Made by a program: the position numbers and the translations under genes. Below the pieces are notes generated by a model, which had not been told where the DNA came from, searched no databases, and worked only from the letters and a program-made list of their open reading frames with translations. Positions 3,944 through 38,318 of a DNA stretch of 64,000 nucleotides are shown one piece after another; the first letter of the stretch is position 1, and the number at the start of each line of letters is the position of its first letter. Origin of the DNA: Oscillospiraceae bacterium (GTDB lineage: Bacteria; Bacillota; Clostridia; Oscillospirales; CAG-382); the NCBI GenBank assembly GCA_015063885.1, contig SVTH01000005.1, forward strand, positions 1-64,000. The letters run 5' to 3'.

Positions 3944-4749
3944 ATGAAGCCCGTTTTCTGTACCGACGTTACCGACAACAAGCACAGCACCGCCATCCAC
4001 GGCGAGGAATTTATTTTTGCCTCCATTTCCGACGACGTCCGTCGGGAGGTCAACGCCACCATGGAGGAGGCCGCCAAGCCCTTGAAGCAGGCGGAGCTTC
4101 CTCTTTTGCTGAGGATTCTGCGCTTTGCGGGGCTTTGCTTTGCCATGGCCATGGGCGTCACCATGTTTGACGGCGGCTTTCAGGTCATCAGACTGCTGTT
4201 GTGCCTTGCGGGGCTTGCCGTTTATATCGGTCTTACCCTGTACGCAGGGAAGCGCAAGGAAGCCCTGGTGAAGAAGATGGGCGCAGAGCCCATGATGGAT
4301 GCCATGGAAAAGGTCACCCATCGTGTGATGGAGGAGCTGGAGATCCCCGCCGATGCCGTCGTCGCAGACGTGATCTGCTTCCGCTATAAGGAAAAGGAGG
4401 GCAAGCGGGAGGCGGTGCTTTCCGCAGGAGGCGTCAGGTACGTGAACGTTGAGGTGTACTGCTACAAAAACGACACCCATTTATTCCTTGCGGACATGGA
4501 GCGGGTGTACGCCATCCCTCTGCAGGGGTTGCGCACCATCACCGCCGTTCACGAACCCATCACCCTCGCCCGCTGGAACAAGCCCTACGGCCCCCGCGAG
4601 TACGGCGTAGAGCAGACCGCCAGAGGAACCGTCCCCACTGACGTGCACTATATTCTGGAATTCACCGCCGGAGGCGAGGACTACGGCATCTACTTCCCCG
4701 TTTACGAGCTGGAAGCTATCAAGCAGCTCACGGGGCTGGACGAAGGAGA

Positions 4750-34527: not shown

Positions 34528-34539
34528 AAAGGAGTGCCC

Positions 34540-35640
34540 ATGAATATTTTCGCCGTTATCTTCCCCCTGGTGTTCCTTTTGGGGGTCGCCGCCATCTTCT
34601 ATTTGGGGGTACGGCTGTGGAGATTCCCGCCCTTTTTGGGGAAGAAGCTTCCCATCCGTTTGCTTGCCTTCCCCGTGTTCCCTTTGATCGCCTATTTGGT
34701 GACTGTGATCCTGGGGATGTCCACCCTCTTTAACATGATCGTGATGCTCCTTCACCTGGTGGTGTTCTGGTTGCTTTGCGATCTGGGCTGGTGGATCGCC
34801 GAGAAGATCCGAAAAAAGAAGCCCCGCCGTTACTATGCGGGGATAGCTGCCATTGCCTTGACGGTAGTATATATGGGTGCAGGATGGTTTTTTGCCCACC
34901 ACGTGTTCGTCAAGGAATACAGTCTCACCACGGAAAAAGACGTGGGCCGGCTTTGCATCGTGCAGATCTCCGATTCCCATTTGGGCGTCACCTTAAGCGG
35001 CAAAGAGTTCGCCGAGGAGATGGAGAAGGTACAATCCCAAAACCCCGACGTGGTGGTGATCACCGGGGATTTCGTGGATGACGACTCCTCAAAAGAGGAT
35101 ATGCTTGCCGCCTGCGAGGCCTTGGGAGAGCTGAAGACCACCTACGGGGTGTATTTTATCTACGGCAACCACGACGACGGCTATTTCCGCAAAGGCACCT
35201 TCACCCCCGCAGAGCTGCGGAAGGCTTTGACCGACAACGACGTGGTGATCTTAGAGGACGAGACGGTGCTGATTGATAACCGTTTCTACCTCATGGGCAG
35301 AAAAGACCGTTCCGCAAGGGACCGCCTCTCCATGGAGGAGTTGACAAAGGATCTCGACCCTGCAAAATATACCCTGGTGCTGGATCATCAGCCCACGGAT
35401 TTTGAAGCTCAAACGGCTGTGGGGGCGGATCTGGTGCTTTCCGGCCATACCCACGGCGGGCACATCTTCCCCACCGGGCTGGTGGGGGTGTGGTTCGGCG
35501 GGAACGACCTGTGCTACGGCAAGGAGGTACGGGAAAGCTCCACCTTTATCGTCTCCTCGGGAATCTCCGGCTGGGCAATGCCCTTCAAGACCGGTTGTAT
35601 CTCCGAGATCGTGGTGATCCGCGTGACGGAGATATCATAA
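34540..35640 (+). CDS. membrane metallophosphoesterase (YaeI-like)
   Basis: A 366-residue protein with four hydrophobic segments in the first 125 residues and a calcineurin-like phosphoesterase domain from about 140: QISDSHLG (D, H), VVITGDFVDDDS (GD), FIYGNHDDGYF (GNHD), LVLDHQP (H) and SGHTHGGHIFP (GHTH). The two-metal signatures are all present. Relatives act on phosphodiesters or pyrophosphates at the membrane. The ATG at 34540 follows AAAAAGGAG by 5 bases; 12 bases separate it from the SGNH stop. It is the last gene of the operon, and repeat DNA begins right after it. Confidence 0.88.
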   Translation: MNIFAVIFPLVFLLGVAAIFYLGVRLWRFPPFLGKKLPIRLLAFPVFPLIAYLVTVILGMSTLFNMIVMLLHLVVFWLLCDLGWWIAEKIRKKKPRRYYAGIAAIALTVVYMGAGWFFAHHVFVKEYSLTTEKDVGRLCIVQISDSHLGVTLSGKEFAEEMEKVQSQNPDVVVITGDFVDDDSSKEDMLAACEALGELKTTYGVYFIYGNHDDGYFRKGTFTPAELRKALTDNDVVILEDETVLIDNRFYLMGRKDRSARDRLSMEELTKDLDPAKYTLVLDHQPTDFEAQTAVGADLVLSGHTHGGHIFPTGLVGVWFGGNDLCYGKEVRESSTFIVSSGISGWAMPFKTGCISEIVVIRVTEIS

Positions 35641-35677
35641 GGAAGAAGCGAATGATTGCTTGCCACCGTTGGCATTT

Positions 35678-35838
35678 AAGCCTCCCCTTAGCAAGGGGAG
35701 AGAGACCGCCGCAGGTGCTGGAAGGGATTGACTCACAGGTAAAACTTGCTTCTTGCCCTTTCACAAAAAGTATCTTTTCCCCATGGCTCAACCCCTCGGT
35801 CGGCAAAGCAGACTATTCCCCCATTCCGGGGGCAACCT
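35678..35838. repeat. MITE-like element, copy 1 (about 160 bases, short form)
   Basis: Opens with AAGCCTCCCCTTAGCAAGG and closes with GGGGGCAACCT, imperfect inverted copies. The inner part has GGAAGGGATTGACTC and CAACCCCTCGGTCGGC. It is a shortened member of the family described for copy 3. Confidence 0.75.
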
Positions 35839-35871
35839 GCGGTGCGTAAAGTTAGAGATTCAGCCGAGGTG

Positions 35872-36105
35872 AAAGGCTCCCCTTAGCATAGGGGAAGGAG
35901 GGGATTGTCCCACGGGCAAAACTAACTTTCAAAAGCCGGTAACAAGCAACACTTTCCCCGGAAGCAACGCCGACGGCACGAATCAACCGACGGCTTATAC
36001 CCACGTCTGTTTTCCCGCTACCGAAAGAATCTTTCTGCACGGCTCAACCCCCTCAGTCACGGCGGTCGGACACGCCGTGCCAGCTCCCCCTTCCAGGGGC
36101 AGCCT
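35872..36105. repeat. MITE-like element, copy 2 (234 bases)
   Basis: Left end AAAGGCTCCCCTTAGCATAG, right end CTCCCCCTTCCAGGGGCAGCCT. Subterminal words CAAAACTAACTTTC (left) and GAAAGAATCTTTC (right) are conserved in copies 2, 3 and 5; the core carries GACGGCACGAATCAACCGAC. Confidence 0.85.
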
Positions 36106-36164
36106 GTGATGCGGACGGCTTGAATTTTTCGCCAAGAAAAAGGAGTTCACTTTAGTAGGGCCGC

Positions 36165-36424
36165 AAAGGCTCCCCTTAGCAAGGGGAGCTGTCGCGCCGC
36201 TTGCGGTGTGACTGAGGGGATTGTCCCACGGGCAAAACTAACTTTCATAATCCGGTAATAAGTAGTACTCCCCTCCCCGGAGGCAACGCTGACGGCACGA
36301 ATCAACCGACGGCTTATACCCACGTCTATTTTCCCGCTACCGAAAGAATCTTTCCGCACGGTTCAACCCCCTCAGACACGGCGACCGGACACGCCGTGCC
36401 AGCTCCCCCTTCCAGGGGCAGCCT
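36165..36424. repeat. MITE-like element, copy 3 (260 bases)
   Basis: Best-preserved non-coding copy. Each end is about 55 bases and is itself a hairpin (CTCCCCTTAGCAAGGGGAG). The left end runs to GTGACTGAGGGGATTG, and the right end CAACCCCCTCAGACACGGCG...CCAGGGGCAGCCT is its inverted counterpart. Confidence 0.85.
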
Positions 36425-36457
36425 GTGATGCGTAAAGTTAGAGATTTAGCCGAGGTA

Positions 36458-37015
36458 AAAGGCTCCTCTTGGTATAGGGGAAGGAGGGTATTGCCCCAAG
36501 ATTCAAACTATCTTTCATACCGCAAGTATGTTTCAAAAGGAGACGGCTTATGGATCGAAAATACAACAAATCCATCATCTCTACTGCGAAAATGCTTCGG
36601 AAAACAATGACAAAAGAAGAAAAGCACCTTTGGTACGACTACCTCAGACGCCATCCCGCGCGTTTCACGAGACAGAAGGTGTTGGGGAAATACATTGCGG
36701 ATTTTTATTCCGCGCGAGCACAGTTGGTGATCGAGTTGGACGGCTCAGGGCACGCTACCGAAGCCGGACTGAAGCACGATGCGATCCGTACAGCTTTTCT
36801 TGAAGAGATGGGGCTAAGCGTCATCAGGATCCCCAACGGCTTGATCTGGCGAGATTTCCGTGGTGTATGCGATTATTTGGATGATGTTTTGCGACAGTTT
36901 ATTCCACAGGATGAATAGGAGTGTGCTACGAGGTTCCTTGTGTGAAAGAATCTTTCGATGTGGCTCAACCCCTCGGTCGGCAAAGCCGACTATTCCCCCA
37001 TTCCGAGGGCAGCCT
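36458..37015 (+). mobile_element. putative mobile element carrying the DUF559 gene (copy 4, 558 bases)
   Basis: The left end AAAGGCTCCTCTTGGTATAG with TTCAAACTATCTTTCA and the right end GTGAAAGAATCTTTCG...CAACCCCTCGGTCGGC...GAGGGCAGCCT match the ends and subterminal words of the neighbouring MITE-like copies. In place of their ~100-base core it holds the DUF559 gene. It is bounded on both sides by the same linker, GCGTAAAGTTAGAGATTTAG. This is what an autonomous parent of the small copies would look like; mobility itself is inferred. Confidence 0.5.
36550..36918 (+). CDS. DUF559 (Vsr-like) endonuclease-fold protein
   Basis: A 122-residue protein of the DUF559 family, related to very-short-patch-repair nucleases (PD-(D/E)XK fold). 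Seen features are an N-terminal helical part with LRKTMTKEEKHLWYDYLRR, RFTRQKVLGKYIADFY with the first acid, LVIELDGSGHA with the E-x-D core and histidine, KHDAIRTAFLEEMG, and SVIRIPNGLIW at the end. The catalytic positions look intact. AAAAGGAG stands 7 bases before the ATG. It is embedded between MITE-like ends and is the only gene in the 35.64-37.48 kb repeat cluster. No function is established for stand-alone DUF559 proteins; a role in moving or maintaining the repeats is inferred from position. Confidence 0.85.
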   Translation: MDRKYNKSIISTAKMLRKTMTKEEKHLWYDYLRRHPARFTRQKVLGKYIADFYSARAQLVIELDGSGHATEAGLKHDAIRTAFLEEMGLSVIRIPNGLIWRDFRGVCDYLDDVLRQFIPQDE

Positions 37016-37047
37016 GCGGTGCGTAAAGTTAGAGATTTAGCCGAAGC

Positions 37048-37294
37048 AAAGGCTCCCCTTAGTAAGGGGAGCTGTCGCGCCGCTTGCGGTGTGACTGAGG
37101 GGATTGTTCCACGGGTCAAACTAACTTTCAAAAGCCGGGAACAAGCAACACTTCCCCCGGAGGCAACGCCGACGGCACGAATCAACCGACGGCTTATGCC
37201 CACGTCTGTTTTCCCGCTACTGAAAGAATCTTTCCGCACGGTTCAACCCCCTCAGTCGGCTGACGCCGCCAGCTCCCCCTTCCAGGGGCAGCCT
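37048..37294. repeat. MITE-like element, copy 5 (247 bases)
   Basis: Left end AAAGGCTCCCCTTAGTAAGG, right end CTCCCCCTTCCAGGGGCAGCCT, with CAAACTAACTTTC and GAAAGAATCTTTC. Same core as copies 2 and 3. Confidence 0.85.
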
Positions 37295-37348
37295 GCGGTG
37301 CGGACGGCTTGAAATTTTACCAACGTAAAGCCCCCTTAGCAAGGCCGC

Positions 37349-37458
37349 AAAGGCTCCCCTTAGCATAGGGGAAGGAGGGGATTGTCCCACGGGCAAAACA
37401 ACTTTCAAAAGCCGGTAACAAACAACACTTTCCCCAAAGGCAACGCCGCCGTGTGACG
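37349..37458. repeat. MITE-like element, truncated copy 6
   Basis: Only the left half is present (AAAGGCTCCCCTTAGCATAG to GGCAACGCCGCCGTGTGACG); the right half is lost just before the 37487 gene. Confidence 0.75.
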
Positions 37459-37486
37459 GAGAAATTTGACGAAGGAGTGAAAACGT

Positions 37487-37741
37487 ATGGACAAAGAAAC
37501 GATTGGAACCGTACTATCTGTTGCAAAACAATGGTGGTTAAAGGTGAATACGAAACCCATACGAATGGGTGCCTTGGACGGCGCAACCTTTCCGCATATC
37601 ATTAAAGTGCAGTATGTTGTGGATGGAAACACCTACACTAAGAGAAAATGGATTGGTGCAGGTAAAGCAGTTCCTGCTGTTGGGAGCAAACTGACAGTTC
37701 TTTATTGTTCCAACAAGCCGAGTAAAGCAAAAATCCTCTAA
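37487..37741 (+). CDS. small conserved protein (DUF3592-like)
   Basis: An 84-residue soluble protein: MDKETIGTVLSVAKQWWLKV, then FPHIIKVQYVVDGNTYTKR, KWIGAGKAVPAVGSKLTVLY and CSNKPSKAKIL. The pattern of a converted pair of strands with 'GTV.SV...WW', 'VQYVVDG.TYTKRKW', 'GS.LTVLY....PSKAKI' resembles the DUF3592-type domain and is widespread in Clostridia, where homologues are sometimes misnamed as sugar permeases. No membrane segment is present, so a transport role is unlikely. AAGGAG precedes the ATG and a terminator follows. Confidence 0.7.
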   Translation: MDKETIGTVLSVAKQWWLKVNTKPIRMGALDGATFPHIIKVQYVVDGNTYTKRKWIGAGKAVPAVGSKLTVLYCSNKPSKAKIL

Positions 37742-37782
37742 TTAAACAAATTCCAATTTGTCGAATAAACAAAATAAAATAG

Positions 37783-37815
37783 AAGCCACGGATCAATGCG
37801 AACCGTGGCTTTTTG
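37783..37815 (+). terminator. terminator of the 37487 gene
   Basis: AAGCCACGG pairs with CCGTGGCTT around an 11-base loop, followed by TTTG. Confidence 0.85.
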
Positions 37816-37990
37816 TGTGCCCTGAAAGTCTATCTGTTTTTTCTTGGCAGCACTGCATTTGTAGACACAAATACAAAATACAGCATACATCTTTCGAGAT
37901 ATACCGTATTCTTGTAGAACTGTCCTTTAGAGTACGCTTCTAACCTTCATTTTTTGTTTTTTAATAAAACCCAAACGTTTCCGAAAACCA
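37816..37990. other. intergenic stretch without recognised features
   Basis: AT-rich non-coding DNA between the terminator and the next promoter. A 61-codon open frame at 37758-37943 crosses the terminator and has no ribosome site, so it is not called. Confidence 0.5.
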
Positions 37991-38019
37991 TTGCAAACAA
38001 CCCGATGGTATCATATGCT
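37991..38019 (+). promoter_or_regulatory. probable promoter of the hendecad-repeat gene
   Basis: TTGCAA at 37991-37996 and TATGCT at 38014-38019, spacer 17; the -10 box is non-consensus. Confidence 0.5.
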
Positions 38020-38059
38020 TGTCAAAAAGAGAGCCGAACAAAAAAGGAGATTACAAGTG

Positions 38060-38308
38060 ATGTCTAAATTCGCAGAAGCAAATGAGAAGATCGCCGAGGG
38101 CGTGGTCAAGGGTTACAAGAAGATCGAGGACGGCGTTGTCAGCGGTTACAAGAAGATCGAAACCGGTGTGGTAGAAGGTTACAAGAAGATCGAAGACGGC
38201 GTGGTGGAGGGTTTTACCAAGGTCAACGATAAGATCATCGAGAAGGTCTTCTCCAAGGAAGGCGAAACCGTAGAGGACACCAAAAAGCGCCTCTCCGGGG
38301 AGAAGTAA
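38060..38308 (+). CDS. small repeat protein with 11-residue amphipathic repeats
   Basis: An 82-residue protein. From residue 14 it repeats an 11-residue unit: GVVKGYKKIED, GVVSGYKKIET, GVVEGYKKIED, GVVEGFTKVND, then DKIIEKVFSKEGETVEDTKKRL. The repeat is also visible as a 33-base repeat in the DNA (about 38102-38224). Eleven-residue periodicity with glycine, paired valines and Lys/Glu is that of an extended amphipathic or LEA/apolipoprotein-like helix. Related small Clostridia proteins exist but I know no function. The start is supported by AAAAAGGAG upstream; a terminator closes the single-gene unit. Confidence 0.75.
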   Translation: MSKFAEANEKIAEGVVKGYKKIEDGVVSGYKKIETGVVEGYKKIEDGVVEGFTKVNDKIIEKVFSKEGETVEDTKKRLSGEK

Positions 38309-38318
38309 ATTCCAAAGC

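Follow-up and report, generated by a model that had tools for sequence, protein, structure and literature searches.

The window (the whole 64,000-nucleotide stretch of DNA that was analysed) carries six related repeat units at positions 35678-37450, located after a metallophosphoesterase gene (34534-35640) and before small ORFs. Unit 4 (36458-37020, + strand) encloses an intact gene for a DUF559 (PF04480) Vsr-fold nuclease at 36550-36918 on the + strand. The gene-less units, all on the + strand, are unit 2 (35873-36108), whose left end is without the second hairpin, unit 3 (36166-36427), with a complete two-hairpin left end (36168-36225) and a right end at 36338-36427, and unit 5 (37049-37304), with a complete left end. 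The six elements described in an earlier sequence-only reading are thus present as related units, but unit 1 (35678-35856, + strand; left hairpin CTCCCCTTAGCAAGGGGAG) is degenerate and unit 6 (37349-37450, + strand) is truncated, with its right end gone.

The left end is shortened and lacks the second hairpin in units 2, 4 and 6, and in unit 4 (left end 36458-36520, right end 36944-37020) the first hairpin is also mutated. Folded as single-stranded DNA, the left end of unit 4 is no better than its shuffles (z +0.74) and its right end reaches z -1.9, while the left and right ends of unit 3 reach z -3.3 and -2.9. The reading had given the gene-bearing copy the same ends and inner words as the gene-less copies; the common inner words are present, but the identity of the ends is only approximate, because the left end has lost its second hairpin and carries a mutated first one. 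Its claim of an intact DUF559 gene with its own ribosome site held, the ORF of 122 aa being preceded by the sequence AAAGGAG. Overall, that observation was partly confirmed, right in outline and in need of these corrections. The window locus was also considered as an active element and rejected on the worn ends of the gene-bearing copy, which has probably lost its mobility.

A 17-bp near-direct repeat (CCGCGTGACGGAGATAT and CCGTGTGACGGAGAAAT, at 35619-35635 and 37449-37465) brackets the cluster, and could be an insertion trace, a likeness to the left-end tail GTGACGGAGGGAT, or chance.

The DUF559 protein

The product of the window gene matches PF04480 with an E-value of 1.2e-24, and all columns invariant in 15 relatives are kept in it, including the conserved residues E24, D51, E62, D64 and H68, from which nuclease activity is predicted. 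In Foldseek searches with its AlphaFold model (pLDDT 88), the nearest solved folds were 3hrl, a DUF559 protein, and 3r3p, the catalytic domain of I-Bth0305I, both with probability 1.00; Vsr (1cw0) ranked lower, with probability 0.95 but a weak E-value of 0.15. The significant PF04480 match and the Vsr-like fold place the protein among the DUF559/Vsr-like PD-(D/E)XK nucleases. DUF559 is the only gene inside the window element, with no gene for a DDE, HUH, serine or tyrosine transposase, and PADLOC assigned no defence family with a convincing score.

The window's genome and its sister species

Three further arrays of the window repeat were found in the same genome, all gene-less and all on contig C22 (at about 47, 102 and 108 kb). 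The only two DUF559 matches of the genome are both on contig C6, and none lies in the C22 arrays. The second DUF559 gene (C6:104365) has repeats on both sides that belong to a different family (CCTCATCC/CTTCCCC type). This genome holds one type A pair and one type C pair of nuclease and repeat. The units of the window array (35632-38313) and of the C22 arrays are linked by two recurring linkers (TGCGTAAAGTTAGAGATTTAGCC.. and TGCGGACGGCTTGAAATTTTACC..). At about 102 kb on C22 there is a 560-bp tandem duplication, and recombination also seems to contribute to array growth.

The entire cluster is absent from the sister species G009, which is 94% identical to the window genome over the neighbouring gene, and G010. 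In both, the metallophosphoesterase stop codon is followed directly by the terminator, and therefore the window has a 2.7 kb insertion (35632-38313) between that stop codon and its terminator, and two small ORFs lie in it together with the repeat cluster. A further conserved sequence, ~110 bp long (AGCACTGCATTTGT..CACAAA..GCAAAATACGGC..CCGTATTTT..GAAAACTGTCCTTTAGAG) lies at 37850-37945, 0.9 kb to the right of the gene. The same sequence is found directly to the right of DUF559 elements in one lineage (L117, L130, L132, L133, L136, L137, L138, L140, L086 and L247), and may be a companion element.

Association of DUF559 genes with flanking repeats

DUF559 matches were found in 20 of the 63 genomes of the family and in 89 of the 295 genomes of the order. 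Inverted matches between the two flanks (score of at least 30) were present at 20/40 DUF559 loci with long flanks, compared with 3/330 other genes on the same contigs, and at 45/75 DUF559 loci compared with 5/154 control genes in a set of named genomes (p = 5e-22), some genomes possibly being common to both sets. With a strict detector, which required a pyrimidine-armed hairpin plus a tail motif, a unit was found in a flank of 124/199 DUF559 loci and 16/473 control genes (p = 3e-63; loci and genomes are related by phylogeny and are not independent samples), and this excess indicates that repeats flank DUF559 more often than expected by chance. Units in both flanks were found at 23 DUF559 loci and at no control gene. 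The search for the ends across the genome and its relatives that the sequence-only reading had proposed thus recovered both the C22 arrays and an order-wide presence of flanking ends on DUF559 genes, far above controls.

These counts bear on the simplest alternative, that DUF559 genes are chance cargo caught between abundant intergenic repeats. The repeats are indeed common and arrayed in these genomes, but control genes on the same contigs are almost never so flanked, and the pairing of nuclease subfamily with repeat type across host families and the fused start and stop architecture described below are likewise at odds with this explanation, which we consider very improbable.

DUF559 genes without these ends, which had been named as evidence against the proposal, do exist: about 38% of the DUF559 loci had no unit in either flank under the strict detector. 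Many of the genomes are MAGs, which break at repeats. At one locus (L175, ~3950-4400), a DUF559 gene without hairpins lies between two near-identical direct copies of ~50 bp that cover the end of the upstream gene, as if it had been inserted with duplication of a long target or had arrived through gene conversion.

Outside the order, DUF559-like matches were mostly weak or within much larger proteins. Two strong DUF559 genes found there, L336 (in G467) and L337 (in G568), are flanked by another repeat (CCACCCCGCCC..GGGCACCCCTCC..GGAGGGGAATT), and therefore the arrangement may be wider.

Architecture of the element and its ends

The canonical element (L130-L160 and others) has the structure AAAGCCTCCCTTGTGTAAAGGGAGGTGGCACGCGAAGCGTGACGGAGGGATTGTA-ATG-DUF559-TGACAGCTCCCTTTACACAAGGGAGCCTTTTT, and in this compact form recurs in many unrelated intergenic contexts. 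The left hairpin end supplies the ribosome site (GGAGGG) and the stop codon falls within the right end, TGA stops being enriched among DUF559 genes (120/203, compared with 143/453 controls). Followed by a T run, the right hairpin end reads as an intrinsic terminator. Among 140 pairs of compact elements, left ends were 90% and right ends 99% identical, while the flanks outside were 62-65% identical and unrelated 60-mers 56%; the borders of the element are therefore sharp, since the ends are near-identical and the outside flanks approach the unrelated level.

Each end is about 50 nt long and consists of a fixed hairpin (H1), a hairpin of variable sequence (H2), and a tail (GGAGGGATTG) with a sequence that echoes the H1 3' arm. 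In type A, H1 reads CTCCCTT...AAGGGAG. The left end has an H1 of the GCC..GG kind followed by ..GACGGA, and the right end, read inward, an H1 of the GGC..GC kind followed by ..GACTGA. Compensatory changes were found in both hairpins, and the sequence of H2 varies from copy to copy yet still pairs. The covariation score was reached by 0/500 shuffles for left or right ends, and slid controls failed. The C run of the H1 arm and the G run of the tail are equally long in 138/138 informative distinct type A units (3/3 in 95 of them, 4/4 in 43), a count that excludes 10 further type A units not fitting the pattern. This suggests that the tail and the H1 3' arm would be read by one recognition surface, or would pair alternately with the 5' arm.

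No Rfam family matched the repeats, only sub-threshold chance matches being returned. When run backwards as a control, the C hairpin pattern had 49 matches in G315, which correspond to a separate abundant palindrome.

The ribosome site in the left end and the intrinsic terminator in the right end would also be expected if the ends were expression signals, or a self-regulatory structure bound by the nuclease, with the gene-less copies as their decayed remnants. This explanation appears improbable, since the gene-less copies are numerous well-formed pairs of a left and a right end, and their insertions have empty sites.

Gene-less derivatives and empty sites

Gene-less copies were also found in G281, which contains six elements of 116-142 bp, each with one left and one right end, in addition to a full type C element with its DUF559 gene. 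For two of the gene-less elements there are orthologous empty sites in G357, and for a third a paralogous empty site in its own genome, indicating that gene-less copies moved without the gene. The insertions are in intergenic gaps, and two of them separate a stop codon from its terminator hairpin. Empty sites, which had been proposed as a check, were thus found for gene-less copies, and the window cluster is absent in both G009 and G010; they cover the gene-less copies and the whole 2.7 kb island of the window, not a single DUF559-bearing element. For the DUF559-bearing element in the genus of G281, no empty site was found, the flanks being unalignable across the junctions.

No target-site duplication was consistent among the elements compared. 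A full type A element in G281 (L108, on C3) has the 10-bp sequence AAAAAAACAG on both sides, the right-hand copy forming the start of a terminator, and this is a possible target duplication.

Pairing of nuclease subfamily and repeat type

A total of 203 DUF559 loci were assembled and their flanks labelled A-F by tail motif. Between host families, flanks matched in 87% of the pairs at a protein distance below 0.3, in 62% at 0.3-0.4 and in only 3% above 0.6. The nearest protein in another host family had an equal repeat type in 78/100 cases (random 19%), while paralogs in the same genome did so in only 10/52 pairs. On the protein tree the repeat label changed 31 times, compared with a mean of about 91 and a minimum of 82 in shuffled labels. 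Flank type could also be predicted from the protein alone, with 68/83 correct for A, 28/36 for B, 21/22 for C and 13/15 for D, the own genome being left out where its identity was known. Repeat type therefore tracks the nuclease subfamily and not the host.

Copy number across genomes follows the same pairs. Type A hairpins reached at least five copies in 27/75 genomes with DUF559 and in 9/220 without a confident DUF559 (p = 2e-11), so that genomes rich in repeats and lacking DUF559, another observation named beforehand as evidence against the proposal, are a minority; they could be explained by loss, incomplete assembly or another mover. Copies of the C repeat rise with subfamily C (p = 4e-6) and not with A or D, those of the D repeat with subfamily D (p = 1.6e-5) and not with A or C, and those of the A repeat with subfamily A (p = 0.01) with modest specificity, all counts including the repeats that flank the DUF559 gene itself. 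Within these genomes the repeats are common and cluster in arrays.

Possible movers of the repeats

The hairpin ends, the insertion beside terminators and the inverted doublets resemble REPINs (PMC3686654), and an IS200/RAYT-type (HUH) transposase could move the repeats in the way that REPs are moved, DUF559 being unrelated to the movement. Against this, Y1_Tnp is absent from the window's genome and from many repeat-rich genomes, its presence in repeat-rich genomes (15/36) is similar to that in the comparison (13/44, p = 0.35), and the repeat flanks sit on DUF559 genes. A RAYT/Y1 transposase as the mover is thus disfavoured for want of any association with repeat richness, and we regard it as a very remote explanation.

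The main rival is that the gene is a homing-type parasite of repeats spread by something else: the nuclease would cleave gene-less repeats of the matching type, and gene conversion would then carry the gene into them, so that it would track repeat type without being the mover. Consistent with this are the fold, which is that of the EDxHD homing endonuclease I-Bth0305I, the use of the repeat ends as borders of the canonical gene, the existence of some repeat-rich genomes without DUF559, and the L175 gene, which lies between direct copies of ~50 bp with no hairpins. However, the number of gene-less copies rises specifically with the cognate subfamily, which would not be expected of a passive parasite unless it needs abundant targets, and no alternative mover was found, Y1/RAYT being absent from 21/36 repeat-rich genomes. 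This rival is therefore considered unlikely, though less so than the other alternatives.

We favour the explanation that DUF559 is an enzyme dedicated to moving (or maintaining) a family of short palindromic elements, with a probability of roughly 0.68. The gene-repeat association, the type specificity, the selected hairpin structure, the gene-less derivatives and the empty sites are observed, while end binding, cleavage and copying are inferred on the basis of the fold, the known EDxHD nuclease chemistry (PMC3943268) and a Caulobacter DUF559 protein reported as a driver of a DNA-damage response (PMC12907096). In the proposed mechanism, the Vsr-fold nuclease would recognise ends of its own type, probably when these are extruded or single-stranded hairpins, and would nick or cut near the tail of the end; host replication or repair would then copy the element into A/T-rich intergenic sites beside terminators. 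Gene-less copies retain just the two ends.

The sequence-only reading had proposed an autonomous element and its non-autonomous derivatives, driven or maintained by a Vsr-like nuclease. This interpretation is partly supported: the flank enrichment, the pairing of subfamily and type, the type-specific copy number, the derivatives with one left and one right end and the empty sites all agree with it, but the window copy represents an active element poorly, its ends being worn. Some repeats have moved to new places, and this suggests an undescribed kind of mobile element, a partnership like that of REP and RAYT in which a Vsr-fold nuclease would mobilise or maintain its own palindromic ends. There is about an even chance that this is a new class of mobile element, in which one Vsr-fold PD-(D/E)XK nuclease, with no known transposase, would move itself and its gene-less derivatives through two-hairpin ends, with subfamily-specific recognition and insertion beside terminators.

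Comparison with known systems

A link between DUF559 and repeats was not found in the literature naming DUF559, as far as the available text of those papers goes, nor was a comparable system among papers on palindromes, MITEs and REPs; subscription papers and preprints were largely outside both searches. If the favoured explanation is true, it would provide a function for a large family of "unknown function", and a cause for one class of intergenic repeats of gut Clostridia, for which the literature found offers no explanation. REP-like repeat populations run by a nuclease unrelated to HUH transposases would then represent a convergence. The natural enzyme and repeat pairs (types A-E) could serve directly as cognate and non-cognate substrates in studies of how a 120-aa nuclease recognises hairpins.

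The protein shares a Vsr-type fold with the Vsr patch-repair nucleases and with the Caulobacter DUF559 protein VsrA, which is tied to a DNA-damage response (PMC12907096). In contrast to Vsr, no DNA methyltransferase was noted as a partner next to the window gene, and repeats are found instead. The fold of the EDxHD homing endonuclease I-Bth0305I (3r3p) is among the nearest to DUF559, but DUF559 is only about 120 aa long, has no added DNA-binding domains, and accompanies a dispersed repeat family instead of residing in an intron, an intein or a fixed target gene.

With its inverted ends, an autonomous gene copy, short gene-less derivatives and empty sites, the system resembles insertion sequences with MITE derivatives. 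It differs from them in having no known transposase domain and no clear target-site duplication, and in its ends, which are double hairpins.

The closest parallel is with REP/REPIN sequences and their RAYT enzymes, in which the enzyme gene is flanked by cognate repeats that depend on the enzyme (PMC3686654). Both systems have palindromic intergenic repeats, often as inverted doublets, and a small gene for a single-domain enzyme with repeats of its own type in the flanks, and in both repeat abundance follows the cognate enzyme, with several enzyme and repeat pairs per genome (PMC3686654). The dependence of repeat abundance on the cognate enzyme is seen here in the type-specific copy numbers, which speak for a system that works like REP/RAYT and not for membership. 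The enzyme here is a PD-(D/E)XK Vsr-fold protein (PF04480) instead of HUH/Y1 (PF01797), and no PF01797 is present in the window's genome; the ends are two-hairpin structures with left and right asymmetry; and the canonical gene lies inside the element, its start and stop being common with the ends. The GTAG/CGTC tetranucleotide at the hairpin foot was not seen, distinct type A units beginning with (A)GCCTCCC or (A)GGCTCCC (by eye, with a search pattern that fixed the first bases). The DUF559 system therefore works much like the REP/RAYT group but does not belong to it: its enzyme has no HUH domain, no REP tetranucleotide was observed, and its gene is internal to the element.
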